Below, one piece after another: positions 217 to 17,206 of a stretch of DNA of 64,000 nt (its first letter is position 1; each line of letters starts with the position of its first letter). The notes beneath the pieces were generated by a model. That model saw nothing but the letters and a program-made list of their open reading frames with translations, did not search any database and was not told the origin of the DNA. The translations under genes and the position numbers were made by a program. This DNA comes from Actinomycetota bacterium (GTDB lineage Bacteria; Actinomycetota; Thermoleophilia; RBG-16-64-13): contig JADQBG010000013.1 of the NCBI GenBank assembly GCA_016278725.1, forward strand, positions 62,001 to 126,000. The letters are read 5' to 3'.

Positions 217-250
217 GCTCGGCGCCGAGCCCGTGCAGCGGGGGATCCCG

Positions 251-985: not shown

Positions 986-993
986 CGTTCCCC

Positions 994-1701: not shown

Positions 1702-1730
1702 TGGTTTCCCCCTGGGCCGGTGCTGATAAA

Positions 1731-1764
1731 GCAACGGGGACTGGAACTACCCAGCCCCCGTTGC
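1731..1764 (-). terminator. Intercistronic stem-loop between binding protein and permease genes
   Basis: The arms at 1731-1744 and 1751-1764 pair over 14 positions with one mismatch around a 6-base loop. On the transcribed (minus) strand the hairpin is followed by TTTAT rather than a long U run. Placed between the binding-protein and permease genes, it may act as a partial terminator or an mRNA-stabilising 3' end. The hairpin is seen; its role is inference. Confidence 0.55.
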
Positions 1765-1815
1765 GTTCCTTCTCAGAAGCTCAGTCTAAGCGACGGTGAG
1801 CGGTGCTCGCTGTCG

Positions 1816-2775
1816 TTACTGCTGGGTCGCCGGCAGCTCGCCGAACCACTTCATGAAGATCTTGTCGTACAGGCCATCGTCTTTGACTTCCTGCAGCGCC
1901 TGGTTGATGGCGGTCTGCAGCTCCGTGTTTTCCTGCTTGATCCCGTAGCCGTAGACGTCGCCGGTCTCGATGGTGCCGGTGTTCTCGTAATCCGGCAGCT
2001 CGCGGATGATGTAGGCGTTGACCGGCGCGTCGTTGACCACCGCGTCGATGCGACCGGAATACAGGTCCTGGAAGGCGTTCAGCACGGTTTCGTACTTCTT
2101 GATCTCCTGCACGCCCTCGACCTCTTCAACGGCGAACTGGCCCGTGGTGTCGATCTGCACGCCCACGATCTTGCCGGCCAGACCTTCGGCCGACTCAATG
2201 GGGGCATCGACCGGGGCGGTGATAGCGATGTCGGCCTTGATGTAGGGATCGCTGAAGGCGATCTGTTGCTGGCGCTCTTCGGTGATGGTCATGGCCGACA
2301 TGATTACGTCGTACCGGTCGCTGACCAGGGCGGGGATGATGCCGTCCCAGGCTGTCGATACCACTTCCAGCTCCAGGCCCATCTTCTTGGCCATGGCTGT
2401 CATCAGGTCGACGTCGAAGCCGACGTAGTCGCCCGACTCGTTGGCAAACTCAAAGGGCGGGAACGCGGTGTCCGACCCACCCTGTAGAACGCCTTCTTGA
2501 ACGGTCGGCGGGGTATCGATGTTGTCCGACTTGGTGACGGCCTGGATTTCCGCGTCGACCTCTTCGTTCGTCGGAGCCTGGGTCGTTTCACCCACGGTTG
2601 AGTCGGTGCTCATGGCTTCGGTCGAGTCCGTCGCCATCTCCTCGGTGGTCTCGGTGTCGGTGGCTTGGGTCGTGTCTTCCGTGCTGGTTTCGTCGTCGCC
2701 GCAGCCGACAAGGGCCGGGACGAGAGCGAGCGCAAGCGCCAAGAGAACGACGATCCACAGGTGATTCCTCTTCAA
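1816..2775 (-). CDS. Amino acid ABC transporter substrate-binding lipoprotein
   Basis: Extracytoplasmic receptor of the importer, SBP_bac_3 fold, about 319 residues. I use the TTG at 2775 because GAGGAGG lies just upstream and translation from it gives a classical lipoprotein signal: KRNH, a hydrophobic stretch, then the lipobox LVGC. After the lipidated Cys comes a Thr/Ser/Glu/Asp-rich linker of about 60 residues, then two lobes with FPPFEF, GFDVDLMTAMAKKMG and VVNDAPVNAYI, typical of polar amino acid receptors. Residues upstream of 2775 in the same frame look untranslated. First gene of a three-gene minus-strand operon. Confidence 0.93.
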   Translation of the reverse strand: MKRNHLWIVVLLALALALVPALVGCGDDETSTEDTTQATDTETTEEMATDSTEAMSTDSTVGETTQAPTNEEVDAEIQAVTKSDNIDTPPTVQEGVLQGGSDTAFPPFEFANESGDYVGFDVDLMTAMAKKMGLELEVVSTAWDGIIPALVSDRYDVIMSAMTITEERQQQIAFSDPYIKADIAITAPVDAPIESAEGLAGKIVGVQIDTTGQFAVEEVEGVQEIKKYETVLNAFQDLYSGRIDAVVNDAPVNAYIIRELPDYENTGTIETGDVYGYGIKQENTELQTAINQALQEVKDDGLYDKIFMKWFGELPATQQ

Positions 2776-2951
2776 GCGGGCCTCCTCGAATTCGAGTTGG
2801 TTCGTTGCATAAGGATACGACGGTCGGAATAGCCGACTGTTAGGCGCCATTGATACCACACCGGTTGTGAAGCTGTCTACGAGGTAAGTGGAGCCGGGAA
2901 CGGTCTGGTAGGGTTTGGCTTTGAGGTATTGGCCCCCACCGAAGGAGTAGT

Positions 2952-3983
2952 TTGAAGCGTCGCCCCTTCCCCCACTGGCTGACGCCCCTGGTCGACGAAC
3001 TCACCGCCGAGGTGAGAGGCGTGGTCGCCCCGCACCTGGGGCACAGCGGGGCCAAGGGCCTGGCCGGTCGCGCTGAGGGAGGAGACACCACCTTCTCCAT
3101 CGACGTCCTTGCCGAACAGAGGGTGGCCGCATTTCTCGAGGAGCGGCAGGCGCCCGTGGCCCTCTATTCCGAAGACCAGGGCCTCAAGACCTTCGCAGGC
3201 TCCGGGAAGGCGGAGTACGTTCTGATCGTGGATCCCATCGACGGCACTCGTCCCGCTGCGGCCGGATTCGAGGCGGCCTGCGTGAGCGTGGCCGCCGCCG
3301 ATCTGGGGGGACGGCCGCTCGAGGCGGCCGTCCCGGTGATGGGGGACGTGGTCTACGGCGTGGTCCACGAGATCAAAGAGGGCGGCCGGTTTCGGGCGGC
3401 GCGCGGTGAGGGCGTCGAGGCGCTCGACGGCGAGGGCGGCTCCCGGCCGCTGGCCCCTTCGGTTAGCGAGGATCTGTCTCGACTCTTCTGGGCGCTCGGC
3501 TTTCGCGGCCGGCCCGCCCGGGAGCTCACCGCCGTCCTGGGAGATTTGATCGATCTCTCCTCGGTAGATGGCGGGGTGTTCGATTTAGGGAGTGCCACCT
3601 ACTGCATGACCCGCATCCTCACCGGGCAGCTCGACTGCTTCATCGACCCGGGGCCCCGAATGATCGAAGTCGCCCCCTGGGTAGAGGAACGCTTTCGCCA
3701 GGTGGGGAAAGGAGCCGTGTTGAACAACGCCCCCTATGACGTGGCGGCTTCCACTCTGATTCTCGAAGAGGCGGGTTGCCCGGTGACAGACGCGACCGGT
3801 GGGAGCCTGCATGACCGGCCTTTGCTCGGTGCGGGCAGGGAATACCAGATGGCGGTGGTTGCCTCCGCCAACGCACCACTGCACCGGTTGGTCCTGGCAG
3901 AGCTAGAGCGCGGCTTGAAGGCCTTCTCGCTCGGGGGGCCGGCCGGAGGAATGCCGAACCCCCGGGAAGGGGCACGGGCATGA
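2952..3983 (+). CDS. Inositol monophosphatase-family protein
   Basis: Mg-dependent sugar-phosphatase fold, 343 residues. Motifs seen: a metal-binding Glu in ALYSEDQG, the DPIDGT signature in LIVDPIDGTRP, and APYDVAASTLILEEAG near the C-terminus, matching the family's W-D-x-A-A-G motif with Tyr for Trp. The segment after DPIDGT (RPAAAGFE) departs from the usual N-F-x-x-G, so the substrate may not be inositol phosphate. The TTG start follows AAGGAG with 4 bases between. The stop overlaps the start of the radical SAM gene (ATGA), so the two are translationally coupled. Confidence 0.82.
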   Translation: MKRRPFPHWLTPLVDELTAEVRGVVAPHLGHSGAKGLAGRAEGGDTTFSIDVLAEQRVAAFLEERQAPVALYSEDQGLKTFAGSGKAEYVLIVDPIDGTRPAAAGFEAACVSVAAADLGGRPLEAAVPVMGDVVYGVVHEIKEGGRFRAARGEGVEALDGEGGSRPLAPSVSEDLSRLFWALGFRGRPARELTAVLGDLIDLSSVDGGVFDLGSATYCMTRILTGQLDCFIDPGPRMIEVAPWVEERFRQVGKGAVLNNAPYDVAASTLILEEAGCPVTDATGGSLHDRPLLGAGREYQMAVVASANAPLHRLVLAELERGLKAFSLGGPAGGMPNPREGARA

Positions 3984-5008
3984 TCGCCGAGTTCTGGGAG
4001 CCCGCCGCAGGTGGACGCACCAAGTGCACGCTCTGCCCGCATTTCTGCGTGATCGACGAGGGCCGCGAAGGTTTGTGCAAGGTTCGGGGCACCCGCGGCG
4101 GCCGGCTCGAGAGCCTGGTCTACGGACGGGTGGCCACCGTGGTTTCGGACAGCATCGAGCGCAAGCCCTTTTACCACTTTCATCCGGGCACGTTTGTCCT
4201 TTCGCTGAGCACTCTGGGATGCAACGTGCTCTGTTCCGGCTGCAACACTTGGCAGCTCTCGCATGCCACCGCCGCCCGCGGGGCGGCGGAGAAGTTATCC
4301 TTCATGACACCCGAAGAAGCGGTTGCCATGGCCGAGAAGCACAAGCTGCCGGGGATCGCCTTCGCCTTCGGCGAGGCGGCCATCTGGGCCGAGTACGTCC
4401 ACGACGTCTGTGTCGCGGCGAAGGAAGCCGGCCTCTTCACCTGCTTCGTCACCGCCGGCTACATGAACGTGAAGACGCTCGATTATCTGGCCCCGCATAT
4501 CGACGCCTTCAAGTACGACCTCAAAGCCCCGGACGGGCGGGGTTGGGGATGGCTGACGAAGGTCGAGGATCCCGAAATCACTCTCGACATGGCGGTCCGT
4601 GCCAAGGAGGATCACGGATGCCACGTGGAAGTGGTGAGCAATCTGGTCCCCGGCATGAACGATGACGACGAGAGTCTGACGAAGATGGCAAACCAGGTGC
4701 TCGAGCGCTTTGGAGCCGGAACCGCGTGGCACGTGACCCGTTTTCTGCCCGAGTTCGAACTCTCGTACGTGCCGGCAACTCCGGTGAAGACACTGGAAAG
4801 AGCGGCCCAGATCGGACGCAAGGCCGGCTTGGAGTTTGTCTACGTGGGTAACGTCCCCGGCCATCCCGGCCGGCACACCGTCTGCCCGGAGTGCGGGCGC
4901 ACCGTGATCCGGCGCGGGGACCAGCGCGCTGAGGAAAACTGGGTCCGGGAGGGCCGCTGCCCCGACTGCGGCTTGGATCTGGGGATCGTGGGCGGCGAGA
5001 AGCCGTGA
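3980..5008 (+). CDS. AmmeMemoRadiSam-type radical SAM enzyme (PflA-like)
   Basis: Radical SAM protein of 342 residues. N-terminal Cys motif CTLCPHFCVIDEGREGLC, then the cluster-binding loop LGCNVLCSGCNTW (C-x3-C-x2-C), a PflA-like barrel, and a C-terminal rubredoxin-like knuckle with CPECGR and CPDCGL. This arrangement is that of the radical SAM partner of the AMMECR1/Memo system. Neither AMMECR1 nor Memo is in this window; the partner gene is an IMPase-like phosphatase that overlaps it by 4 bases. Reaction and substrate are unknown for the family. Confidence 0.85.
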   Translation: MIAEFWEPAAGGRTKCTLCPHFCVIDEGREGLCKVRGTRGGRLESLVYGRVATVVSDSIERKPFYHFHPGTFVLSLSTLGCNVLCSGCNTWQLSHATAARGAAEKLSFMTPEEAVAMAEKHKLPGIAFAFGEAAIWAEYVHDVCVAAKEAGLFTCFVTAGYMNVKTLDYLAPHIDAFKYDLKAPDGRGWGWLTKVEDPEITLDMAVRAKEDHGCHVEVVSNLVPGMNDDDESLTKMANQVLERFGAGTAWHVTRFLPEFELSYVPATPVKTLERAAQIGRKAGLEFVYVGNVPGHPGRHTVCPECGRTVIRRGDQRAEENWVREGRCPDCGLDLGIVGGEKP

Positions 5009-5015
5009 GGGGGTT

Positions 5016-5036
5016 CGCGTCCGTTGCGCGGACGCG
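5016..5036 (+). terminator. Possible terminator hairpin after the radical SAM gene
   Basis: An 8-bp perfect stem (5016-5023 with 5029-5036, loop TTGCG) begins 8 bases after the radical SAM stop. No U run follows, so it may be only a weak terminator or an mRNA 3' stabiliser. Confidence 0.35.
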
Positions 5037-5144
5037 TTACGAACGGGGTTTGCGGCAGGCGAGAGGAACCGATATAACTGACAGGCTTCCCAGGGGACTG
5101 GGAGGTCAGTCTGTGCATCGGAACCATTAGGTTAGGAGATCCAC

Positions 5145-5582
5145 TTGGAGGCCGCCCGGCGAGTCGTTCTCACACTTCCGGCCAAAGCGGAGTACGTAGC
5201 CCTATCACGCCTGGCCACATCCGGGCTCGGCAGCGGATCCGACATGGCGGAGGACGTGGTGGAGGATCTCAAAGTTGCGGTCAGCGAGGCCTGTTCCTAC
5301 TTCCTCCGGGAGGCCCCCGCTGAGAGCGAGACGGACAGTTCATCCTCTCGACCGGACCAGGAGGCGGAGGAGCTTCGTATCGAGTACGAACTGGGGGACG
5401 AGGTCCTCCAGATATCGGTCTCCGGATGCAGCGATGTCAATGCTGCCGGGACCGTCGAAGTCGATCCTTTTTCAGAGTTTGGCCTGGGGATGACGATCAT
5501 CAGGGCGCTCGTCGACAAGCTCGAGCTTTCCGAAGCGCCCGAATCGCGCACGTTGCTCCGTTTGACCAAACGCTTGAAATGA
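5145..5582 (+). CDS. HATPase (anti-sigma/GHKL-type) regulator lacking the N-box Asn
   Basis: A 145-residue single-domain ATPase of the RsbW/GHKL superfamily, with no dimerisation or sensor domain. The helix that should carry the metal-chelating Asn reads AVSEACSYF, where anti-sigma kinases have AVSEAxTNA, so the Asn appears replaced by Tyr. A glycine-rich lid (GLGMTIIRALVDKLEL) is present. TTG start with AGGAG 6 bases upstream. Its stop overlaps the ATG of the LytTR response regulator (ATGA), so it should act with it. It may bind a partner without phosphorylating it; that is inference. Confidence 0.7.
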   Translation: MEAARRVVLTLPAKAEYVALSRLATSGLGSGSDMAEDVVEDLKVAVSEACSYFLREAPAESETDSSSSRPDQEAEELRIEYELGDEVLQISVSGCSDVNAAGTVEVDPFSEFGLGMTIIRALVDKLELSEAPESRTLLRLTKRLK

Positions 5583-6319
5583 AGGACCTCTACAGGGCTC
5601 TCATCGTAGACGATGAGCCCCCGGCCCGAGCCGAACTCAGGTTCATGCTCGCGCGCCACAGCCGGATCAAGGTAGTGGGGGAGGCCGGGGGCGCCGAAGA
5701 GGCCCTCGCGCTCGCCGAGAACCTCTCGTACGACGTCATCTTCCTCGACGTCAATCTGCCCGACATGGACGGCATCGAGGTGGCCCGGCGGCTGGCCGAG
5801 CTCGCCGAGCAACCCTACGTTGTATTCATCACTGCATATTCCGAGTTTGCGGTTCGGGCTTTCGAAGTGAGCGCCTTCGACTACTTGGTGAAACCGGTGA
5901 CCGAGCGCCGCATGGACCAGACGGTCAATCGCCTGCTCTCCACGCTCGATGCCACGCCTTCGGCGGTGGAGCAGGCCCCGAGGCAACTCGACCGCCTCCC
6001 GGTCAGCCGGGGCGACAAAACGGTTCTGCTGGACATGCAGGAGATTTTCTACTTCCAGGCTGAGGGAGACTACGCCCGCGTGTTCACGAACAAAGCGGGC
6101 TATCTGGTCAATTACTCCCTTAAATCGCTGGACGAGCGTCTGGATTCCCGTTCGTTCTTCAGGTGCCACCGGAGCTATATAGTCAATCTGCAGCATGTCT
6201 CGGAGATAATCTCCCTCCCCTCCAACCTCTACGAACTCAGGCTCGACGACGACCGGCGCACCGTGCTGCCGCTGAGCCGCCGGCAGACCAGGGAGTTGCG
6301 CAAGCGCCTCGATTTCTGA
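5579..6319 (+). CDS. LytTR-family response regulator
   Basis: Two-domain DNA-binding regulator of 246 residues. The receiver domain shows the acidic pair in VDDE, the phosphoacceptor Asp in VIFLDVNLPDMDGIEVA, Thr/Ser in FITAYS and the conserved Lys in YLVKPV. The LytTR domain (about 145-246) has FYFQAEGDYARVFT, SLDERLDSRSFFRCHRSYIVN and a basic end. The usual LytS-type sensor kinase is not adjacent; instead the preceding gene encodes a stand-alone HATPase that overlaps it by 4 bases. The ATG at 5579 is chosen over longer in-frame extensions because it starts exactly at the receiver domain. Confidence 0.92.
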   Translation: MKDLYRALIVDDEPPARAELRFMLARHSRIKVVGEAGGAEEALALAENLSYDVIFLDVNLPDMDGIEVARRLAELAEQPYVVFITAYSEFAVRAFEVSAFDYLVKPVTERRMDQTVNRLLSTLDATPSAVEQAPRQLDRLPVSRGDKTVLLDMQEIFYFQAEGDYARVFTNKAGYLVNYSLKSLDERLDSRSFFRCHRSYIVNLQHVSEIISLPSNLYELRLDDDRRTVLPLSRRQTRELRKRLDF

Positions 6320-6329
6320 GGCTCTCCCG

Positions 6330-6401
6330 CCCGGGGCTCGCCTGCTGGCCCGCCTGTCCTGCCGGCCCGGGGCTCGCCTGCCGGCCCGCCTGTCCTGCCC
6401 G
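6330..6401. repeat. Tandem 36-bp repeat, about two copies
   Basis: Two consecutive 36-bp units (starting near 6330 and 6366) differ at very few positions. They lie between the LytTR gene and the terminator, in a convergent intergenic region, and no gene covers them. Confidence 0.8.
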
Positions 6402-6434
6402 CCCTCGATTGGAGTCCGCTCGCTTGTGGCAGAG

Positions 6435-6465
6435 AAAGGGCCCTCCGTTTCCGGAGGGCCCTTTT
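6435..6465. terminator. Bidirectional intrinsic terminator
   Basis: A 13-bp perfect stem (6435-6447 with 6452-6464, loop TTTC) starts with AAA and ends with TTTT, so it can terminate on both strands. It sits between the convergent LytTR and symporter genes. Confidence 0.9.
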
Positions 6466-6525
6466 CGATTCGTCCCGTGAGGAACGAGGTTCCTGGCCGA
6501 ATATGCTTCGGCGCTTTGGCGGGAA

Positions 6526-8196
6526 CTAGTGGACGTCGGCGCCACCCGCGCCGCGGGGCACGCGCACACCTTCAACCATCTCTTGGATGTGCAGGGGCGG
6601 AGCCGGGGTTACCCGGGAGACCACGAAGGCCACGATGAAGTTCATCGCCGCACCCACGGTGCCGATACCCTGAGCGTTGATGTCGAAGAACCAGAGGCTC
6701 ATGTCGAAGAACTGGGCTCCGACGATGTAGAAGGTGGTGAACCCGAGGCCGACCACCATACCGGCGATGGCGCCCTCCCGGTTCATCCTCTTGTCGAAGA
6801 TACCGAGGATGATGATCGGGAAGAAACTGGCCGCCGCGAGACCGAAGGCGAAGGCCACCACCTCGGCCACGAACCCGGGTGGGTTGATGCCGAAGTACCC
6901 TGCCACGATGACCGCGCCCAGGATCACCAGACGGCCCACGAGCAGACGTTCACCCTCACTCGCTGCCGGGTGAATCAGCTTGTAGTAGATGTCATGGGAT
7001 AGTGAGCTCGAGATGACCAGCAGCAGTCCGGCCGCGGTGGAGAGGGCTGCTGCCAGACCGCCGGCTGCCACCAGGGCGATGACGATGGCCGGGAGGCCCG
7101 CCACCTCGGGGGTGGACAGGACGATGATGTCGCGGTCGATGGTGATTTCGCTGGTTTCCGGGTCGGCCGTCATCTCTAGGACGCCGTCGGTATTCTTGTC
7201 CTCGAGGCCCAAGAGGCCGGTTTCCGACCAGCTATCGACCCACTCGATCTCATTGACTTCCTCGACGCTCTTGCCCTGCAGTTCATCGATCAGGTTGTAT
7301 TTGGCGAACACGGCGATGGCCGGAGCCGTGGTGTAGAGGATGGCGATGAACAACAACGCCCATCCCGCCGAGTACCGTGCGGCGCGGACGCTGCGCACGG
7401 TGTAGAAGCGGATGATGACGTGGGGCAGACCGGCGGTCCCGATCATCAATGACATTGTCACCATAAACACGTTCAGACCGGATAAGTTCGTAAACGGCTG
7501 GGTGTAGTTGGTCAATCCCAGATCCGTCTGTATCTGATTCAGGCGACTGGTGATGTCGCTGAAGGTCAGAGCCAACTGGGGGATCGGAATGTCGGTCAGG
7601 ATGACCGCGATGGCGACCGCGGGCACCAGGTAGGCGATGATGAGCACCGTGTACTGCGCCACCTGGGTCCAGGTGATGCCCTTCATTCCACCGAGCACGG
7701 CGAAGAAGGCCACGATGAGCACACCGACGACAACCCCCCACTCGATGGACAAACCGAGGAAACGGCTGAAGACGATGCCGACGCCGCGCATCTGACCGGC
7801 GACGTAGGTGAAAGAAACGAACATGGCCGCGATGGCCGCCACCACTCTGGCTACGTTCGAGTAGTAGCGGTCGCCGACGAAGTCGGGCACTGTGTACTTT
7901 CCGAACTTCCGCAGGTACGGGGCCAGGAGCAGCGCCAGCAGCACGTAGCCGCCGGTCCATCCCATCAGATAGATGGCTCCGTCATACCCCAAGAAAGAAA
8001 TGAGACCGGCCATGGAGATGAACGACGCGGCCGACATCCAGTCGGCCGCGGTGGCCGCTCCGTTGGCTATGGCGGGAACGCCGCGGCCGGCGACGTAGAA
8101 ACCGCTGGTCTCCTTAACGCGGCTGGCGTACCCGATGTAGATGTAGCCGGCGAATGTCAGCCCGACCAGTAGATAAGTCCAAGCTTCAACAGACAT
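6526..8196 (-). CDS. Sodium:solute symporter large subunit (VC_2705 subfamily)
   Basis: Membrane transporter of the SSS family, 556 residues with about 13 hydrophobic segments. Typical SSS features are the N-terminal segment ADWMSAASFISMAG, the core GITWTQVAQYTVLI and LSTAAGLLLVISSSLSHD. The about 70-residue loop between two helices (ELQGKSVEEVNEIEWVDS onward) and the paired DUF4212 gene identify the two-subunit VC_2705 subfamily. Likely substrates are short organic acids such as acetate; the sequence does not prove this. The ATG follows AAGGGG and lies 10 bases after the small-subunit stop. Confidence 0.9.
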   Translation of the reverse strand: MSVEAWTYLLVGLTFAGYIYIGYASRVKETSGFYVAGRGVPAIANGAATAADWMSAASFISMAGLISFLGYDGAIYLMGWTGGYVLLALLLAPYLRKFGKYTVPDFVGDRYYSNVARVVAAIAAMFVSFTYVAGQMRGVGIVFSRFLGLSIEWGVVVGVLIVAFFAVLGGMKGITWTQVAQYTVLIIAYLVPAVAIAVILTDIPIPQLALTFSDITSRLNQIQTDLGLTNYTQPFTNLSGLNVFMVTMSLMIGTAGLPHVIIRFYTVRSVRAARYSAGWALLFIAILYTTAPAIAVFAKYNLIDELQGKSVEEVNEIEWVDSWSETGLLGLEDKNTDGVLEMTADPETSEITIDRDIIVLSTPEVAGLPAIVIALVAAGGLAAALSTAAGLLLVISSSLSHDIYYKLIHPAASEGERLLVGRLVILGAVIVAGYFGINPPGFVAEVVAFAFGLAAASFFPIIILGIFDKRMNREGAIAGMVVGLGFTTFYIVGAQFFDMSLWFFDINAQGIGTVGAAMNFIVAFVVSRVTPAPPLHIQEMVEGVRVPRGAGGADVH

Positions 8197-8206
8197 CGTC
8201 TACCCC

Positions 8207-8506
8207 TTACTCGTGCACGTCGAATTCTTTATCGATACGGTCCATCCAGCGCGCGTACACAAAGATCAGGATCACGAAGACTACGATCGATCCTTGATGC
8301 GCGAACCAGAAGGAGAGCGGCACACTAAAGAAGTTAATGTCCGCGAGCGGCTCCGCCAGAAGGATTCCGGCGACGAAGGAAACGAGCGCCCAGACCACGA
8401 GCAGGCCGATGATCAGAGTGATGTTCTTGCGCCAGTAGGCCTTTCCGGCGGGGCTGTTGTAGTCGTATGCCGCGCGTTCTGGCGGTGTTTGCAGATCAGG
8501 TTCCAT
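8207..8506 (-). CDS. DUF4212 symporter small subunit
   Basis: Small membrane protein with two predicted helices (ITLIIGLLVVWALVSFVAGI and HQGSIVVFVILIFVYARWMD) and the hallmark FPLSFWFA-like segment VPLSFWFAHQGS. This is the obligatory small subunit of VC_2705-type symporters. Two in-frame ATGs exist at 8515 and 8506. I choose 8506 because the run of five G ends 9 bases before it, whereas it abuts the first ATG. First gene of a two-gene operon. Confidence 0.88.
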   Translation of the reverse strand: MEPDLQTPPERAAYDYNSPAGKAYWRKNITLIIGLLVVWALVSFVAGILLAEPLADINFFSVPLSFWFAHQGSIVVFVILIFVYARWMDRIDKEFDVHE

Positions 8507-8863
8507 GAGAGGCATCCCCCTTAGACGAATCGAGGAGCTTCGCCGGAGCCTCCGGTATGGAAGCTTCCCCCCGGCGAGTGGGACCGGCTTTGGGCCGGTC
8601 CGGGTGATGGTCTGTCATCTACCTCCCTTCCGCCGAAGTCCGCGGGCCGAAAGTTGCAGGATGAAGAGAGTGTAGTGCAGAGGCTTCACCGCCGAGAATC
8701 CCGGCGGTTCAGTGGTGAGGCTGTGCCGACGAACGGTGAGAATTACCGGGGATGCGGCGGAGGCCGCCGAAGTCCGCCCGACGAATGGCCTTCTAACGGC
8801 TTTCTAAGGCCGCCTCTTCCTCCATGCATGGCGACTTTTGGCCCTTTTTGACAGAATGACCCC
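8507..8863. other. Divergent intergenic region with two hairpins
   Basis: 357 bases between divergent operons, with no credible gene. It contains a perfect 8-bp hairpin (8581-8588 with 8594-8601, loop TTTGG) and a smaller one (CCGGA/TCCGG near 8542-8555). Both would lie in the 5' leader of the symporter mRNA. The 14-mer CCGCCGAAGTCCGC occurs twice (near 8628 and 8766). Near the plus-strand gene, CAGAAT at 8852-8857 ends 6 bases before the ATG at 8864, compatible with a leaderless transcript. Confidence 0.5.
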
Positions 8864-10588
8864 ATGGCGACGTCAAACAAGCAGCAGGGGGAGGCGCCTC
8901 AGACACCGCTTGGCGGGCGTCTGGTGGAGCGAGCGCTGCAGGGTGAGCGTCTGGAGGCGGCGCTGGAGCGCGCCCAAGGACTCCCCCGGATCATGATCGA
9001 CCGCGAGGCCGAGATCACCTTCGAAATGGTGGCCACCGGGGTCTTCTCCCCCCTTACCGGCACACTCGGCCGCGCCGACAGCGAGACGGTTATCGAGCAC
9101 GGCCGGCTGGCCGATGGCACGCCTTGGCCCATCCCCCTTACGTTTGCTCCCGCCGGGCGGCGGAACCACGAAGTGATCGAGAAGCTGCGCGAGGGCGACG
9201 AGGTGCTGCTCGTCGGGCAGAACGGACAACCGGTGGCGCTGCAGCGGGTCAGCGAGATCTTCACCTATGACCGCGAGAAACGGGCGCAGCGGCTCTTCGG
9301 CACCACTTCTCCCGAGGTTCACCCGGGCGTGGACGCCATCTTCAGGCGGATGGGCGAACTCTCGATCGCAGGCGAAATCGAACTTCTCGACCGGCCGAGC
9401 TGGGGATCGTTCGAGCGCTACCGCATGACGCCCCGGGAGACCTATCGACTGTTGTATGAGGAGCGGGGATACCGTTCCGTCGCGGGTTTCATCACCGGGG
9501 CCAATCCCCCGCATGTCGGCCATGAGTACATGCATCGCACCGCCCTCGAGGTGGTCGACGCCATCCTGCTCCTGCCGCAGGTGGAACTGGAGCGGCCGGA
9601 GTACGTCAAACCCGAGTACCGGATCCAGGCGCTGGAAGCGCTGACAGACGTCTACTATCCGCCCTTCCGAGTGGTCATGTCGGCGCTCCGCACCAACTAT
9701 CTGTTCGCCGGCCCCCGCGAGGCGGTGCTCCACGCGATCATCATGCGCAACTACGGCTGCACCCACGCCTTGATAGGACGTGATCACGCCGGCGTGGGCG
9801 ACGTCTATGACATGTACGCCAGCCACCGCATCTTCGACGAATACTCGCCCGAGGAGCTCGGCATCAAGATCGTGGCCTTCTCGGAGGTCTTCTACTGCGC
9901 GCGCTGCCGCATGCCCGCCACGGAAAACACCTGCCCGCACGACACGCGCTACCGGATGCAGATCTCCGGCACGGGAATCCGCGAGGTGCTCCGCCGAGGG
10001 TTCTTCCCGCCCAAAGAGATCTGCCGCCCAGAGGTCAGCCACATTGCCATGCAGGGGGTCGTGCCCAGCGGCAGCGGCATGGGAGACGGTGCCAGACGCG
10101 GAGTCTACGCGCCGGGGCAGACCATCCACAGCCTCTTTTCCTTCTATGAGGTGGCGCACAGGCTGGGCGGTTATCTGCGTCCGGAGATCATCGGGGAAGC
10201 GTCCCTCGGAGAACGCGACCTCGAGGCGGCGTTGCTCGACGTGCGCAGCCATGCGGACCGGGTTTACGAGGCCGTCTTCGACGAGATGGCCGAAGCAGGG
10301 GAGACCAACCGCAGCCTGGCTGCCCGTTGGCGCACCGAAGCCCGCGAGATCCTGATCGACCACCAGGCCGATCTGCTGGCGCATCTCGAGGAAAAGCGGC
10401 GGTTGTTGCATGCCGGCGAAGGGCTCGATCAGTCTCAGGAGGGACTGGAGCGAGACATCTCCCGCGCCGAACGCGTTCTCGAGCAACACCCTCGGCCCCT
10501 GCACCCTGACGCCGTCCGGGCCCGCCTGTCCGATCCGGGCTCTCTCAACTGGAGCGCTGCCAAGGAAGGGGAGAAGGCGGGGGAGTGA
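8864..10588 (+). CDS. ATP-sulfurylase-like nucleotidyltransferase with altered sulfate loop and C-terminal extension
   Basis: 574 residues. Family hallmarks of sulfate adenylyltransferase: VATGVFSPLTG (56-66), LFGTTSPEVHPGV, the histidine motif NPPHVGH (214-220), GRDHAGVGD (305-313), the zinc-binding CARC...CPH (345-359) and ISGTGIREVL. In known enzymes the loop before the histidines is Q-T-R-N, whose Gln and Arg hold sulfate; here the four aligned residues are T-G-A-N (211-214). About 170 mostly helical residues follow the catalytic domain, which normally ends near residue 390-400. No APS kinase, APS reductase or DsrAB gene is in the window. It leads an operon with two CBS-type proteins. Family is clear; substrate is open. 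Confidence 0.8.
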   Translation: MATSNKQQGEAPQTPLGGRLVERALQGERLEAALERAQGLPRIMIDREAEITFEMVATGVFSPLTGTLGRADSETVIEHGRLADGTPWPIPLTFAPAGRRNHEVIEKLREGDEVLLVGQNGQPVALQRVSEIFTYDREKRAQRLFGTTSPEVHPGVDAIFRRMGELSIAGEIELLDRPSWGSFERYRMTPRETYRLLYEERGYRSVAGFITGANPPHVGHEYMHRTALEVVDAILLLPQVELERPEYVKPEYRIQALEALTDVYYPPFRVVMSALRTNYLFAGPREAVLHAIIMRNYGCTHALIGRDHAGVGDVYDMYASHRIFDEYSPEELGIKIVAFSEVFYCARCRMPATENTCPHDTRYRMQISGTGIREVLRRGFFPPKEICRPEVSHIAMQGVVPSGSGMGDGARRGVYAPGQTIHSLFSFYEVAHRLGGYLRPEIIGEASLGERDLEAALLDVRSHADRVYEAVFDEMAEAGETNRSLAARWRTEAREILIDHQADLLAHLEEKRRLLHAGEGLDQSQEGLERDISRAERVLEQHPRPLHPDAVRARLSDPGSLNWSAAKEGEKAGE

Positions 10589-10592
10589 GGCG

Positions 10593-11039
10593 ATGAAGAG
10601 CATATGCGCCTTTGACTTCGCCACCCTCGACTACCCGCGGGTCGGTTTCGACGACAAAGCGTTGGAAGCCCTCGAACTCATGGTGCAGTACGAGCGCAAC
10701 TACGCCATGATCGTCGAGGCCGGCGACATCGTGGGAGTGATAGAGCAAGGCGAGATCGTGGCGGCCTACGGGCGGGGTCAACTGCACACCGACACCCCGG
10801 TTTCGGCTCTCGCCCAAGACCGCCCGTGCGTCGATAAGGCAGCCAGCTTCGATGACGTCGTGCAGTTCATGGCGGCTTTCGACCTCTTCCAGATCTGCCT
10901 GGAGGATCGGGTGCTGGACGATTTCATGCTGCTGCGGGCGATCTGGACCGAACAGCTAGCGGTTGCCAAGGAGTTTCGTGAGTATGAAGCCCCCGCCGCC
11001 CCGATAGAGGAAGGCAGCTATGGCATCGGGTATGGGTAA
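10593..11039 (+). CDS. Degenerate CBS-pair-like protein
   Basis: 148 residues, starting 4 bases after the ATP-sulfurylase-like gene and overlapping the next gene by 20 bases. The pattern ALELMVQYERNYAMIVEAG, then IVGVIEQGEIVAAYG, then a second half with FDDVVQFMAAFDLFQICLE looks like two weakly conserved CBS motifs, without the usual Thr/Asp nucleotide contacts. A Gly/Tyr tail (GSYGIGYG) closes it. CBS pairs usually bind AMP, ATP or SAM and regulate a partner, so I infer a regulator of the upstream enzyme. I do not recognise a named family. Confidence 0.6.
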   Translation: MKSICAFDFATLDYPRVGFDDKALEALELMVQYERNYAMIVEAGDIVGVIEQGEIVAAYGRGQLHTDTPVSALAQDRPCVDKAASFDDVVQFMAAFDLFQICLEDRVLDDFMLLRAIWTEQLAVAKEFREYEAPAAPIEEGSYGIGYG

Positions 11040-11481
11040 CGGGACGGGAGCCCGCCGGGAGCAGGGCCGGCCCCCCCTGGTGGGAGAGTTGGCCACGGCC
11101 AACTACATCCGGGTTTCGCGCCGGCAGCGGGTGGTCGAGGTGGCGCGGCTCATGGCCGAGCGTTGGATATCCTCGGTGCTGGTCCTCGAGGCACGGCGAC
11201 CGGTGGGCATTCTGACCAAACGGACCATCATCAAGGATGTCCTGGCCCGCGGGTACACGGGCATGGAGTTGACCGCCGGCGAGATCATGCACTCTCCGAT
11301 CATCACCATAAGTGCGGACGCCGGCGTCGATGAGGCTGCGGCGATGATGGCGAGGACCGGTCTTCGCCACCTGGCGGTGGTGAGGGACGGCGAGCTCATC
11401 GGAGTGCTTTCGCACTACCACCTGGCCCCGATTCTGCCCGACCTGGTGCGCAACCGGGAGGCGGCCAAGCCCCAAGCCTAG
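11020..11481 (+). CDS. CBS-domain pair protein
   Basis: 153 residues with a well-conserved pair of CBS motifs: about residues 20-75 (VSRRQRVVEVARLMAERWISS then PVGILTKRTIIKDVL) and about 90-140 (IITISADAGVDEAAAMMA then GELIGVLSHYHL). No catalytic domain is attached, so it is probably an adenylate-sensing regulatory subunit. The ATG at 11020 lies 20 bases inside the preceding gene, and the tight three-gene arrangement ties it to the ATP-sulfurylase-like enzyme. Its TAG stop lies in a CCTAGG that starts a 13-bp repeat. Confidence 0.85.
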   Translation: MASGMGNGTGARREQGRPPLVGELATANYIRVSRRQRVVEVARLMAERWISSVLVLEARRPVGILTKRTIIKDVLARGYTGMELTAGEIMHSPIITISADAGVDEAAAMMARTGLRHLAVVRDGELIGVLSHYHLAPILPDLVRNREAAKPQA

Positions 11482-11512
11482 GCCCCAAGCCGAGGCCCCG
11501 CGCCTAGGCCCC
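11477..11512. repeat. Three 10-bp repeats at 13-bp spacing across convergent stops
   Basis: CCTAGGCCCC at 11477, CCGAGGCCCC at 11490 and CCTAGGCCCC at 11503 repeat at exactly 13 bp. The palindromic CCTAGG of the first copy carries the plus-strand stop and that of the third carries the minus-strand stop of the facing gene. Confidence 0.8.
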
Positions 11513-12334
11513 GCGCTGTTCCCGAGTGAGTCCCGTCACGCCCTCCGCCCAGCGCACGAAGTCTTTGAGCGCCCCTGCGATTCCTCCCTCGTGCGGCTGA
11601 AGGTATTCGGGGAACACCTCGAGGGTCAGCAGCCCGCTGAAACCCATGCCCAGGGCTCGGTCCACGAAATCTGCCAGATCCAGGTCGCCCTGGTCAAAGG
11701 GAAGATGCTCCTGGAATTCCTTCTTAGAGAAATTGGAGAGGTGGATGGTGCGGACCCTGTCCCGGAACTGGGCATAGGCGGCCACCAGATTCTCGCCTGC
11801 GGTGCCAAAGTGCGTGGTGTCGAAGGTCATGAACAGGTTCTGCTCTTCCAGCAACTCCCAGAGCTCGTCCCGTTCTTGGTAGCGGTAGGGTGACGTCGCG
11901 AAGGGCACCTTGATCCCGCGCCAACTCTTGGAACGCGGCATGTTCTCCACGGTGATCACGACGTCGCCACCGCCGACGGTTTTCTGGAAGTCGTCGACCC
12001 CGACCATCCAGCGGTGAAAGGTGACTCCGTCCACCGCCCGCTCGGGGGGATGGAAGGTCACGCTGCGGGCCTGGACGGCTCGCGCGACATTGACCGTCGA
12101 GATCAGAGAGGTCACCGGGCCGTCCCATCCGGGCACCGACTGAAAGGGGGCGTGCACGTTGCGGATGGGCATCGCGTAGTGACGGGAGAGCTCTATCAAT
12201 TTGGCGGTGGTTCCGGGGACATGCTCCCGGTTCACCAAGTACTCGAATCCGTCGAACCCGGCCTCGGCCGCAACCTTGAACTGGTCCTCCAGTCCGAGAA
12301 CATGAGCGCAGCCGCTTGAGACGATCAGTTCCAC
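11504..12334 (-). CDS. Sugar phosphate isomerase/epimerase-like TIM-barrel protein
   Basis: 276-residue xylose-isomerase-like TIM barrel (AP endonuclease 2 superfamily). Visible barrel motifs: EAGFDGFEYLV, the metal-site histidines and acids in VTFHPP, VVITVENMPR, FMTFDTTHFG and VRTIHLSNF, and LTLEVFPE at the end. Metal-dependent isomerases or epimerases of this fold act on many sugars, so the substrate is unknown. GTG start at 12334, 7 bases after the stop of the CBS-DUF294 gene, so both probably share a transcript. Confidence 0.78.
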   Translation of the reverse strand: MELIVSSGCAHVLGLEDQFKVAAEAGFDGFEYLVNREHVPGTTAKLIELSRHYAMPIRNVHAPFQSVPGWDGPVTSLISTVNVARAVQARSVTFHPPERAVDGVTFHRWMVGVDDFQKTVGGGDVVITVENMPRSKSWRGIKVPFATSPYRYQERDELWELLEEQNLFMTFDTTHFGTAGENLVAAYAQFRDRVRTIHLSNFSKKEFQEHLPFDQGDLDLADFVDRALGMGFSGLLTLEVFPEYLQPHEGGIAGALKDFVRWAEGVTGLTREQRGA

Positions 12335-12341
12335 AGGCGCT

Positions 12342-13772
12342 CTACAGGTGGAAATGGAATCGGAGGATGTCCGCCAGGTGTTCCACCGCCTTGAAGGCGC
12401 GCTTGAGATTTTGCCGTTCCCATTCCGACCATTCCTCGGGATAGACGAAATACTCGCTGTCTTTGCCGTGCAGCACCTGTTCGAGCGAGTCCTGGATCTT
12501 GAGCCTCAGGAAGAGTTCGTTGGCAAAGAGCAGATTCTCGGCGGATTCCTTTTCCAGGGCGCTGCTCTCCCGCAGCGCTCGGATCCGTTCGGCGGTCTGG
12601 GTCTCCCTGATGCCGTGTTCAATCGCCAGCACCTTGACCGAGGCCATCAGCGGCAACAGGCCGTATCGTTTTACGTTGATGCCCTTGCGGCCGTCGGGTC
12701 CCTTGTCGTACTGGAACCGTCCCAGGAAGTTGAGGGGAACCGGCTTGGCCACGGCGTCTTCGGCCAACGCGCGCACCGCAAAAGGCGCCCGCCCCAACTC
12801 GTCGATGGTGAAGTCCCAGAGCTCGCCGACATGGCGTGATTCTCCCTCGATGGCGCGAAGATCCAGGAAGATGGTGAGATCACGCAGCAGTTCCCCGTCC
12901 TCCATGCCGTGGATCATTCGATAAACTCGATTCTTCCACTCGGTCAGGGTGCCGAACCACCGGTCTTCTCGGGCCATGACACCACCCTGGCACAAGTCGA
13001 AACCGCACGAGTCCAGGTCCTCGTTCACTTCCTGGGCCAGCCGGCGGTAGTAGGCCAACGAGTTGGTGTCCGCGTCGTCGGCGACGATCATCCCGTTGTC
13101 CTGGTCGCCGCGCAGGACCTGCTCGCGACGGCCCTCGGATCCGAAGCATACCCAGGCGAAGGACTGAGCCGGGCGGCGCAGGTCGGGTCTAAGTTCCTGC
13201 TGGGCCAGACGGATGAGCCGCCGCGTGAGCGCATCGTTGTAGTCCGTGAGGATCTCGGTCAGTGATTGGGCGTCCACGTCCCCGAGGAACAGCTTGTGGA
13301 TGAAGCCATCGATCTCCGTACGGGTTCGGCACAGTTCTGTTGTCGACTGGGCACTGCCTATGCGGGAGGTGAGCACCTCCCCCTCGTAACCTTCCACCCG
13401 GATGAGATCCTTCATGGAGACGAAGCCCAGCAGCCGGCCGGCCCCGTCGACGACTACCAAGCGGCGCACCCGGTGGCGCATCATCAGGTAGAGGGCCTCG
13501 TACAGGTGGACGTCCGGCGTGGTGGTGATCAGAGGGCTGGTCATGATTTCCGATGCGGGGGTGCCGATCTCGCCCGTGGTGACGATCTTGTAGACCAGGT
13601 CGCGCTCGGTCACGATTCCCAGGGGTCGCTCGTCGGGATCGGTGACGATGACCGCCACCAATTGCTGGTCCCGCATCAACATGGCCATTTCCTGTGCGCT
13701 CATGTCGGCGGAAACCGTGCACGCCCGGGGAGACAGCACTTCGCCCACTCGGGCCTTGTAGAACAAGCCCAA
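12342..13772 (-). CDS. CBS pair plus DUF294 putative nucleotidyltransferase
   Basis: 476 residues: two CBS motifs (about 10-65 with PLGIVTERDLVYKI, and about 75-130 with LLGFVSMKDLIRVEG), then a DUF294 nucleotidyltransferase-like domain with CFGSEGRREQVLRGDQDN (about 205-222), then a helical DUF294 C-terminal domain. GSxGRxEQ...DQDN is the GlnD-like active-site signature, suggesting transfer of a nucleotide to a protein partner, but no substrate is known. The TTG at 13772 is the first start available and has no clear ribosome-binding site, so the true start may differ by a few codons. It is the fourth CBS-type domain protein within 3 kb counting the convergent operon's degenerate one as one of three neighbours. 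Confidence 0.85.
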   Translation of the reverse strand: MGLFYKARVGEVLSPRACTVSADMSAQEMAMLMRDQQLVAVIVTDPDERPLGIVTERDLVYKIVTTGEIGTPASEIMTSPLITTTPDVHLYEALYLMMRHRVRRLVVVDGAGRLLGFVSMKDLIRVEGYEGEVLTSRIGSAQSTTELCRTRTEIDGFIHKLFLGDVDAQSLTEILTDYNDALTRRLIRLAQQELRPDLRRPAQSFAWVCFGSEGRREQVLRGDQDNGMIVADDADTNSLAYYRRLAQEVNEDLDSCGFDLCQGGVMAREDRWFGTLTEWKNRVYRMIHGMEDGELLRDLTIFLDLRAIEGESRHVGELWDFTIDELGRAPFAVRALAEDAVAKPVPLNFLGRFQYDKGPDGRKGINVKRYGLLPLMASVKVLAIEHGIRETQTAERIRALRESSALEKESAENLLFANELFLRLKIQDSLEQVLHGKDSEYFVYPEEWSEWERQNLKRAFKAVEHLADILRFHFHL

Positions 13773-13921
13773 GCGTTGTTCGGGCGTGACTCCGCCCCCG
13801 AATCCACCGGTTGGCTGGCCTGTAATGTGAGTGTCGATCGGAAACCCCCGTGCCCGGATTCTACCAGTCTAGTCGCTCCCCGCAGAAAGTGCTGCGCTAA
13901 CCGTATGCTAGACTCGCGGCC

Positions 13922-15907
13922 ATGAGGGCAAAAAGCGCCTCGTCCCCCCTCGCCCTCCGTGGCTTCTCGTTCGCGCTCTTGGCGGCGATCGCCGTCTTTT
14001 TGCTGGCGGCGGCTTCGGCCTCCGCCCAGGACGCCCCCGGACTCGAGATGAGTCACGCGCCCCGCCTCGCGCCGAATACGGCACCCGGAATCCTTGCAGT
14101 CGAGGTGCAGACGGACATCCCCTGGAACGCGGGCCGCCTCACCGTTACCATCCGCGGCCCCGGCGATCCCTCTCCCACCGCGGATCCGTTGACCTGGCCG
14201 GTCGCCGCCGAGATCCGTCGGGAACTGGAGTCGGTCGGCTCTAACGTCAATCTCGAGGTGCCCCTGCCGGCGGAATCCTTCGCCAGGCCGGGAGCTTACC
14301 GGGCTTTCGCCGCCCTCACCGGGGAGGGCGGCAGGCGATTGGAGGGCGAGGCCTGGGTCGGCCTGATTCCCGGAGGCGTCACCGTCGACTTGGCCACGGT
14401 GTGGCCGATCGCCACGGGCATCCACCGTGACCCCGATGGCGTCTTCGTCGACGACGTTCTCATGGAAGCCGTCAAGCCGGACGCCCAGGCCGCGGGCAGT
14501 CTCTACGCGCTCTTCCGGGCGGTCGATGACTTCCCCTCCTGGCACCAGACTCTGGCCATCGAACCGGTGCTCCTGACGCAACTCATGGAGATGGCGGACG
14601 GTTTCACGCAGCGCGCTACCGCGGGCGAGGAGATTGCAGTCGATGAAGGCGAAGGGGCCGCCGCCGCGGCGGATCAGGCGCTCTCGTTGATGAAGACCGT
14701 GGCGGCGCTGGACAACGTTCAGATCCTGCCCGCTCCCTACGCCATGCCTTCTCTGCCGTTTCTCGGAAGCCAGGGCTGGATCGACGGCAGGCAGCAGATG
14801 CAGTTGGGCAAACAGCAGGTCCAGGAGGTGCTCGCACTTCCGCAGACTCTCGATGCCGCCTACCCGCCCGGACTGGAACTGACGGACGAGAGCCTGGGCT
14901 CCTTGAGTAACGCCTCCATCGATTACGCGGTGGCTTCGGCGGAGGTCGCCGGCGGTCTGGCCGAGCCCAACGCTGTTTTGGGGGCACCGGTTCGGGTCCG
15001 GGATCGGCAGGGGAACCGGCTGACCCTGGTCTTCGCCCATCCCCGGCTGCGTGCCGCCCTGGTTCCGCCCTGGGACGCAGAGCGGTTTCTGGCGGCCCTC
15101 GCATCGGTGGTGACGGAAACCGGAGGGGGCCCGGTGGTCGCCGTGCCCGCGTTGGACTACGCTCGGCCCCCCGCGCAGTTCCTGGAGGTGGTCGGAGAGG
15201 CACTCGGCGCGAGCGGTCAGATCCGCAGCGTCACGCTGGATGAGTTGCTCGCATCCCGCCCGCCCTCGAGCCGCCCGGTCTTCCTCAACCGCTTCGCCGG
15301 CAATCTCGAGGGTTTCGTCGGCCAGACCTACGCGGAGCGTCTTCAGCGCACACGCCTTCTGGTCGACGATCTGGCTCAGGCGAGCAAATCAGAGCGCTCC
15401 CCGCTCGAATCGTTGAAGCTGCTCCTCTTCGACGCCGAGAGCCGGTACTGGTTCGCGGCAGGCGAGAACCCTTTGGTGGTCAATCTGGGACTCACCTACC
15501 TGGACCGCGCGGCCGAACTGACCCGCGAGGAGTTCGACAAGGTCGACGTCGAAGGGGACAAGTCGGTCATCGTGATGGGATCTAGCGGAGAGGTACCGGT
15601 CGCCATCATCAACCAGACCGGGTATCCGCTCGAGGCGAGACTGGTCCTGCGCGGTGAGGGTCTCGAGGTGCCGGGCGACGCGACCCGGACCGTCAGCCTC
15701 GGTCCCCAGGAGAACATCATCCCGGTGCCGTTGGAAGTGACCGGCTCCACCGGACGCCTGCATGTCGAGGTCTTCCTGGGACAGACCCGCGTGGACCAGG
15801 ACAACATCGAGGTCAGGGGCTTCTCCCTGCTTTCGATCCTTCCCTGGATTCTGATCTCGGTCGCCGTCCTGGCCGTGCTTGGCTTCGTTGTGCTCCGCCT
15901 GCGTTGA
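13922..15907 (+). CDS. Secreted, C-terminally anchored protein (DUF6049-like)
   Basis: 661 residues. Signal peptide at 1-35 (ALLAAIAVFLLAAASASAQ) and one C-terminal helix (about 640-658, LLSILPWILISVAVLAVLGF) ending in LRLR, so the body faces outside and is anchored at the C-terminus. N-terminal beta-rich region, then a central region with deacetylase-barrel-like segments (LLTQLMEMADGF, SLPFLGSQGWIDGRQQM), then a beta-sandwich-like part (PVAIINQTGYPLEARLVL). The order resembles actinobacterial DUF6049 proteins; function unknown. ATG without ribosome-binding site, but TAGACT at 13909-13914 ends 7 bases before it, suggesting a leaderless mRNA. Confidence 0.6.
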   Translation: MRAKSASSPLALRGFSFALLAAIAVFLLAAASASAQDAPGLEMSHAPRLAPNTAPGILAVEVQTDIPWNAGRLTVTIRGPGDPSPTADPLTWPVAAEIRRELESVGSNVNLEVPLPAESFARPGAYRAFAALTGEGGRRLEGEAWVGLIPGGVTVDLATVWPIATGIHRDPDGVFVDDVLMEAVKPDAQAAGSLYALFRAVDDFPSWHQTLAIEPVLLTQLMEMADGFTQRATAGEEIAVDEGEGAAAAADQALSLMKTVAALDNVQILPAPYAMPSLPFLGSQGWIDGRQQMQLGKQQVQEVLALPQTLDAAYPPGLELTDESLGSLSNASIDYAVASAEVAGGLAEPNAVLGAPVRVRDRQGNRLTLVFAHPRLRAALVPPWDAERFLAALASVVTETGGGPVVAVPALDYARPPAQFLEVVGEALGASGQIRSVTLDELLASRPPSSRPVFLNRFAGNLEGFVGQTYAERLQRTRLLVDDLAQASKSERSPLESLKLLLFDAESRYWFAAGENPLVVNLGLTYLDRAAELTREEFDKVDVEGDKSVIVMGSSGEVPVAIINQTGYPLEARLVLRGEGLEVPGDATRTVSLGPQENIIPVPLEVTGSTGRLHVEVFLGQTRVDQDNIEVRGFSLLSILPWILISVAVLAVLGFVVLRLR

Positions 15908-16025
15908 CGATCTCGCACAGGCGCTAAAGTCCGCGCGCGTTTTCCCGATTAAGTGTACGTGCACTGCGCCCCGCTCTTCGGCGCGAGGCCCGTTACCTCT
16001 ACTGCGAACATTCGTTAGGACGGGC

Positions 16026-16379
16026 ATGAGAACTATTTTGAACCTGGCACTGACCTTCCTGGTACTCGCGCTGGTCGTGCTCGACGGCGTGGCCATGTTC
16101 GTCGCCTACCAGTCCTCGCGCGAGGTTGCCGAGGCGGCGGCCCAACAGGCGGTCATCGAATACACGGCAAGCCGAGGCAACCTGGACGCCGCGGAGGCCG
16201 CCGCCCACAGTTACGCTGAGTCCAAGCACACACCCCTGCTCGCGATCGAGTATCACCGTGGTCAGGTTCGTTGGTTCCGGGCGGTAACCGAGTCGTATCC
16301 GGACACCTACCTGTTCAAGTACGTGCCCTTGCTCAAGGACCATCTGGGACAGTCCTACGAAGCGGTGGTCCAGTTCTGA
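16026..16379 (+). CDS. Small membrane-anchored protein of unknown function
   Basis: 117 residues with one N-terminal helix (ILNLALTFLVLALVVLDGVAMFVAY) and a soluble remainder with an Ala-rich helix (EVAEAAAQQAVIEY) and EYHRGQVRWFRAVTESYP. The layout is that of small surface proteins with an uncleaved N-terminal helix. I recognise no family. ATG at 16026 preceded by AGGA. The upstream in-frame extension crosses the intergenic region and is not credible. Confidence 0.55.
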   Translation: MRTILNLALTFLVLALVVLDGVAMFVAYQSSREVAEAAAQQAVIEYTASRGNLDAAEAAAHSYAESKHTPLLAIEYHRGQVRWFRAVTESYPDTYLFKYVPLLKDHLGQSYEAVVQF

Positions 16380-16429
16380 CTTTCCCGCCCCGTCCGCTTG
16401 AGCGGAGAGCGATGCGGTAAAGTGGCGGT

Positions 16430-17206
16430 ATGACCCTTTCTCCTGAGAGCCTCGAGCGGGTCGAGCGGCTTGGCCGGCTACTCGAGGAGTCTGCCTTCAC
16501 CGTTGTCCTCACCGGCGCCGGGATATCCACCGCTTCGGGCATTCCCGACTTCCGCACTCCGGGGACAGGGCTCTGGGAAAAGGCCGATCCGGCCAAGGTG
16601 GCCGCCCTGGATGCTTTCCGCGAGGATGCCCGGGGTTTCTGGCGCTTCTACTCCCAACGGCTGAGCCGGTTGGGAAACGTAGAGCCCAACCCCGCGCACG
16701 TGGCTCTGGCCTGCCTCGAACGAGGCGGCCGCATTCACGGACTAATCACCCAGAACATCGACCGTCTGCACTCCAAGGCCGGCAGCGGCGAGGTGGCCGA
16801 GGTGCACGGATCGATCGATCGCGCGGAGTGTCTTGCCTGCGGCGACGATTACCCCTATGACAGGGTGATGGACGATCTCTCCGCGGGAATCGAAGTGCCG
16901 TGCTGTGACTGTGGCGAGGCTCTCAAGCCGGGGGTGACTCTCTTTGGAGAGGACCTTCCCCCAGACGCGCTCCGCACTGCGGTTGGCTGGGCGCGGAGCG
17001 CGGAATTATTGATCGTCGCGGGCTCCTCCTTGCGGGTTTGGCCGGTCGCCGGTCTGCCCGAGATGACGCTGAACGCAGGAGGACGGTTGGCCGTTCTCAA
17101 TGCGGAGGCCACTCCCTACGACGCGGAGGCCGTGCTCGTCGAACGCTCCCCGCTGGAGGATTTCCTGCCGGTGGTGGCCGAACGGCTGGGCTGTTCCCAG
17201 GCTTAG
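16430..17206 (+). CDS. cobB: NAD-dependent protein deacylase, sirtuin family
   Basis: 258 residues, the full sirtuin core. NAD-binding GAGISTASGIPDFR (about 26-39), TQNIDRLHSKAG, catalytic His in VHGS, zinc-binding CLAC...CCDC and the substrate loop KPGVTLFGEDLP are all present. Bacterial sirtuins remove acetyl or other acyl groups from lysines, restoring enzymes such as acyl-CoA synthetases. The KorA gene begins 8 bases downstream, so it is co-transcribed with a 2-oxoacid:ferredoxin oxidoreductase. TAAAGT at 16418-16423 ends 6 bases before the ATG and no ribosome-binding site is visible, so the transcript may be leaderless. Confidence 0.93.
   Translation: MTLSPESLERVERLGRLLEESAFTVVLTGAGISTASGIPDFRTPGTGLWEKADPAKVAALDAFREDARGFWRFYSQRLSRLGNVEPNPAHVALACLERGGRIHGLITQNIDRLHSKAGSGEVAEVHGSIDRAECLACGDDYPYDRVMDDLSAGIEVPCCDCGEALKPGVTLFGEDLPPDALRTAVGWARSAELLIVAGSSLRVWPVAGLPEMTLNAGGRLAVLNAEATPYDAEAVLVERSPLEDFLPVVAERLGCSQA

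Follow-up and report, generated by a model that had tools for sequence, protein, structure and literature searches.

We found a homologue of ATP sulfurylase, here called SatX, in which the residues that bind ATP and pyrophosphate are retained and those that bind sulfate are replaced. SatX is encoded in a window of 64,000 nucleotides (the whole stretch of DNA analyzed) from a genome of the Actinomycetota. We think it a little more likely than not that SatX is a still-active adenylyltransferase whose acceptor is not sulfate and is probably organic, and whose activity is perhaps gated by neighboring CBS domains.

SatX and its substrate sites

SatX is a clear ATP-sulfurylase homologue of 574 amino acids, encoded by an open reading frame at 8864-10588 (+ strand) that includes GFITGANPPHVGHEY. 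Pfam assigns a PUA_2 domain to residues 14-176 (PF14306, 3.3e-39, 134.5 bits) and an ATP-sulfurylase domain to residues 185-395 (PF01747, 1.7e-68, 230.6 bits), both over cut-off. The nearest relatives of solved structure in the PDB are the zinc-type sulfurylases 8a8d (1.9e-76) and 1v47 (5.4e-67). The curated sulfate adenylyltransferase models of NCBIfam match SatX, none of them over cut-off; TIGR00339 scored 284.1 vs an equivalog cut-off of 322.95, and NF003166 was narrowly below (383.7 vs 387). A C-terminal extension (about residues 400-574; 10061-10588, + strand) is absent from the sulfurylases compared and conserved in the orthologues and in a distant relative, L048 (below). It matched no Pfam family and gave only a chance match in the PDB. 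An AlphaFold model made with the SatX of the window and the L032 sequences had a mean pLDDT of 33, too poor for inspection of the pocket.

The preliminary description of this DNA held that SatX lacks the Gln and Arg with which characterized sulfurylases contact sulfate, their QTRN loop being TGAN in SatX. We confirmed that both residues are absent, using a gapped alignment of eight SatX sequences and 32 sulfurylases. However, the change is not a plain substitution. Anchoring on the histidine pair reads TGAN for QTRN, and the gapped alignment reveals a one-residue insertion, such that F-Q-T-R-N becomes F-[I/V]-T-G-A-N: Gln is replaced by Ile or Val, Arg by Ala, one Gly is inserted, and the Thr and Asn are kept. 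All eight SatX sequences have these three changes, and all 32 comparison sulfurylases have QTRN. The replaced loop and the intact HxGH motif that follows it occupy residues 208-222 (9485-9529, + strand). Residues 208-221 read GFITGANPPHVGHE, with residue 208 beginning at 9485, and coordinates 9488-9529 correspond to residues 209-222 (FITGANPPHVGHEY).

A second loop is also replaced. In the enzyme of A. vinosum, a GxxKxxD loop (231-237) shuts over the phosphosulfate, and its Asp237 is bonded to Arg201 (PMC3779200). The equivalent SatX residues 237-248 (LPQVELERPEYV; 9572-9607, + strand) include E241, R244 and Y247, and the loop reads E-x-E-[RH]-x-x-[YF] across the SatX sequences. The Gly and Asp are gone from 8/8 and the Lys is retained in 1/8. 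The Asp lost here is the hydrogen-bonding partner of the Arg missing from the first loop. All SatX sequences also share the replacements M279Y, Y281F and R294M, so the alteration is larger than the Q-T-R loop first described.

The other half of the active site is intact, as the preliminary description had it for HxGH, GRDHAGVG, ISGTGIREVL and the zinc site. The histidines of HxGH are H217 and H220. GRDHAGVG, the ribose/nucleotide loop, spans residues 305-312 (9776-9799, + strand), and ISGTGIREVL, which contains the SGTxxR pyrophosphate motif, spans residues 367-376 (9962-9991, + strand). The HxxH, GRD and SGTxxR motifs are invariant in 8/8 SatX sequences. The zinc ligands C345, C348, C357 and H359 lie within residues 345-359 (9896-9940, + strand); they correspond to the three Cys and the single His of domain III that mark the zinc-binding subgroup of sulfurylases, with C345, C357 and H359 present in 8/8 sequences and C348 in 7/8.

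We mapped both sides of the site onto the contacts reported for A. vinosum (PMC3779200). There, sulfate oxygens are contacted by Gln199, Arg201 and the backbone of Ala299; the alpha-phosphate by Thr200, the Arg201 backbone and Asn202; the ribose by Gly295, Arg296 and His298; and pyrophosphate by Asn202, His205, His208 and Arg365. All five sulfate-side positions (Gln199, Arg201, Gly231, Lys234 and Asp237) are lost in SatX, except that one sequence retains the Lys. All 11 nucleotide- and pyrophosphate-side positions are invariant in the eight SatX sequences, which have one common origin; we chose the positions from the published contacts and placed Ala309 (Ala299), whose contact is through the backbone, on the nucleotide side. 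A Fisher test does no more than repeat this split of 5-0 against 0-11 and, given the common origin, we give it no weight. The change is not limited to the acceptor side, as approximately 14 further positions that are invariant in sulfurylases are altered. At least six of the eight SatX sequences retain the residue in 52 of 72 such columns, and most of the eight have lost it in 19.

Distribution, ancestry and selection

We found SatX in seven of the 18 genomes of its family. The same seven were the only ones among 399 genomes sampled across the class, and a degenerate motif search of 396 genomes sampled across the phylum found no SatX outside the family. Searches of viral contigs found no TGAN match and no relative (nor any match to a degenerate QTRN pattern), and none was found in phages. 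Among openly licensed PubMed Central papers, we found none that deals with a sulfurylase-like protein carrying this loop.

The sole SatX found beyond the family was L048 (NZ_CP081281, labeled a Phaeobacter inhibens plasmid), which shares 50% identity across 84% of the protein. It is split into several frames, as are the neighboring genes. Its pieces were aligned with an X marking each break, the frames themselves being left unmended. Positions 1-16705 of NZ_CP081281.1 carry no annotation; frames are broken at many points, and genes of chromosome type are present (ActP, a histidine kinase and an AdoMet decarboxylase-spermidine synthase). Part of the record shares approximately 75% identity with Azospirillum DNA. 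The contig may be of low quality or wrongly assigned. The altered loop is fixed in the seven genomes, which represent four genera, and is also present in this unrelated contig, so it is neither chance nor a sequencing slip.

The suggestion that homologues with TGAN form their own clade was borne out. The SatX sequences grouped together with 100/100 support on all columns, and equally when the loop regions were stripped. The clade lies nearest to 1v47 and 8a8d on a long stem, the long branches leaving its exact attachment unsure. These zinc-type, homo-oligomeric enzymes (T. thermophilus 1V47 and M. thermolithotrophicus 8A8D) are the nearest characterized relatives in the tree, and share with SatX the PUA_2 and ATP-sulfurylase domains, HxxH, GRDHAG, SGTxxR and the zinc ligands. 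In contrast to them, SatX lacks the sulfate-binding Gln and Arg and GxxKxxD, has one inserted Gly and an extension of approximately 175 residues, and resides in a genome in which no sulfate pathway was found.

Measurements of dN/dS indicate that satX is a functional gene under strong purifying selection. Between the host genome (G000) and G001, dN/dS was 0.142 for the whole gene, 0.067 for the sulfurylase domains and 0.33 for the C-terminal extension, which evolves faster. Between G004 and G013 it was 0.078 over the satX gene.

Sulfate genes and the satX neighborhood

The preliminary description took the absence of sulfate genes nearby as support for a non-sulfate role, and for PAPS reductase/CysD, APS kinase and AprA the absence, judged by the model cut-offs, extends to the whole genome. 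The host genome is 99.65% complete and its one PF01747 gene is satX. It has no match to PF01507 (PAPS reductase/CysD), a lone PF01583 (APS kinase) match below cut-off, and only weak matches to the AprA model, which fall far short of its cut-off, just as they do in genomes that lack SatX (at most 72 bits across the family vs a cut-off of 642). G001 likewise has no PF01507 match and no AprA match over cut-off, and has no PF01583 match whatever.

Other members of the family have sulfate genes apart from satX. PF01507 and APS kinase matches are clustered together in G004 and G013. By NCBIfam, the G004 cluster contains CysD (NF003587) and adenylyl-sulfate kinase (CysC), both over cut-off, and also, scoring below cut-off, a CysN-like GTPase that ends in part of an APS kinase. 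Separate CysD, CysN-like and CysC genes imply that G004 has another enzyme to activate sulfate. The CysD/CysN heterodimer is a sulfate adenylyltransferase of the same reaction class as Sat, but from different protein families, and the CysD of G004 (with the matching cluster in G013) sits outside the satX locus. G013 and G006 also carry CysH-like genes, and G014 has one further PF01507 gene.

We found that satX lies in a conserved gene order: IMPase-like, radical SAM, HATPase, LytTR, SatX, CBS1, CBS2, TIM barrel and DUF294-CBS, judged as far as the contigs extend; LytTR was not found beside satX in G006. In the window, upstream of satX on the + strand, are genes for an Inositol_P (IMPase superfamily) protein (2952-3983; PF00459, 1.7e-21), an AmmeMemoRadiSam-type radical SAM protein (3980-5008; TIGR04337, 255.7 bits, cut-off 220), a HATPase_c_2 protein (5145-5582; Pfam) and a LytTR response regulator (5576-6319; Pfam), whose close orthologues occur only in genomes with SatX. 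Downstream on the + strand are CBS1 (10593-11039, 148 amino acids; CBS, 9.2e-5, 23.2 bits vs the Pfam cut-off of 24) and CBS2, a CBS pair (11020-11481, 153 amino acids; Pfam CBS, 7e-22), followed on the - strand by an AP_endonuc_2 TIM-barrel protein (11504-12334) and a CBS-DUF294 nucleotidyltransferase-like protein (12342-13772). Adjoining the locus is a conserved 661-residue protein (13922-15907) with no Pfam or NCBIfam match; by eye, it has a signal-like N-terminus and a C-terminal membrane segment.

CBS1 was present in six genomes, every one of which has SatX; in the remaining SatX genome, G012, the contig stops at the 3' end of satX. A single open frame holds both SatX and CBS1 in G014 and G006, the fusion being less certain in G006, where satX has an upstream frame break.

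A symporter gene pair lies between LytTR and satX in the window, on the - strand: the large subunit of a VC_2705-family sodium/solute symporter (6526-8196; TIGR03648, 802 bits vs 321) and its DUF4212 small subunit (8207-8515; TIGR03647, 2.1e-32). The VC_2705 symporter scored over cut-off in 5/7 genomes with SatX and in none without it. It adjoins satX in the window and in G001; for most orthologues in the family, it is encoded at another place in the genome or was not detected. In G012 (C148, 80-2757), a further LytTR copy with 74% identity lies directly next to the symporter. Beside its SatX, L048 encodes an ActP-type symporter (NF006903, 850 bits), a response regulator of LuxR type, and a PAS/HisKA/HATPase/REC kinase whose N-terminal piece is SSF-like. 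This arrangement resembles the CrbS/CrbR acetate system with its ActP or VC_2705 symporters, as described in the abstracts of two papers (PMC5436829, PMC5715377), which mention no sulfurylase-like gene. The counterpart in the window to such acetate uptake and regulation loci is the VC_2705 pair with DUF294-CBS. Both contexts of SatX point towards monocarboxylate uptake and control, although neighborhood is not function.

Possible functions of SatX

If SatX is an active adenylyltransferase, the GRDHAG loop, which is unchanged, would bind ATP together with Asn214, the HxGH histidines and Arg373. A non-sulfate acceptor would attack the alpha-phosphate of ATP, and pyrophosphate would leave. We infer that a small organic molecule is the likeliest acceptor and that it would be bound without the cage of Gln, Arg and GxxKxxD. 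CBS domains commonly bind adenylates. It is therefore plausible that the adjacent CBS domains, in the SatX frame in two genomes, gate activity by adenylate level; catalysis, the organic acceptor and gating are each a proposed step.

The main rival is that SatX is a pseudoenzyme that binds ATP or an adenylate without turnover, senses nucleotides together with the CBS proteins, and regulates the neighboring uptake and signaling genes. We regard this as a serious possibility, though clearly less likely than an active enzyme. The Arg of the catalytic loop is lost, CBS, HATPase, LytTR and DUF294-CBS genes are close by, the extra C-terminal region is conserved, and in two genomes SatX and CBS1 share a frame. 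In addition, the main chain of the sulfurylase Arg touches the alpha-phosphate, and the loop that carries this Arg shifts upon binding (PMC3779200), so its replacement together with the insertion could abolish the chemistry too. However, the pyrophosphate-side residues, which serve leaving-group binding and catalysis and not adenine recognition, are invariant in all eight sequences, including that of the distant contig. The conservation of the nucleotide side and a dN/dS of 0.07 favor an enzyme over a regulator.

A bolder form of the adenylyltransferase reading is that SatX founded a group of enzymes that adenylate organic acids (carboxylate or other) on the ATP-sulfurylase fold, with an acyl-adenylate or adenylylated metabolite as the intermediate or signal through which monocarboxylate uptake and control would run, and with CBS domains for sensing or gating. 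We consider this speculative and rather improbable. A role for SatX as a substitute for acetyl-CoA synthetase is disfavored. AcsA-type genes scored over cut-off in 16/18 genomes of the family, with or without SatX, and with such genes in nearly all of the family SatX is not needed for acetyl-CoA.

The preliminary description had left open a different oxyanion, an acid, or a regulator. The place of SatX among CBS-domain and signaling genes would fit a regulator, but an enzyme is favored, and a different oxyanion has become less likely. Selenate, molybdate, arsenate, phosphate or phosphite could be adenylylated on a fold and nucleotide site that are those of an oxyanion adenylyltransferase, with the backbone donor Ala309 kept. 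Against this, sulfurylases grip the tetrahedral oxyanion, or close over it, with the Gln, the Arg and the shield-loop Lys and Asp, which are replaced in SatX; the cationic Arg has become Ala and its orienting Asp has become Tyr or Phe, and on these grounds we think another inorganic acceptor quite improbable. Least probable is that SatX is still an ATP sulfurylase with a divergent sulfate site, or one that makes ATP from APS in reverse: its overall homology is above the Pfam cut-offs and its genome has no other PF01747 gene, but the invariant sulfate contacts are lost, no APS-using enzyme was found in that genome, a sister genome also has CysD, CysN-like and CysC, and the score of 284 falls below the NCBIfam cut-off of 323.

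A structural comparison in 2013 described the ATP-sulfurylase substrate site as virtually identical whatever the metabolic function (PMC3779200). A clade that has kept the nucleotide half of this site and replaced the sulfate half would show that the ATP-sulfurylase fold is retargetable. SatX-like genes, which score far above the Pfam domain cut-offs, can be mistaken for a sign of sulfur metabolism even when the genome yields no sulfate pathway.
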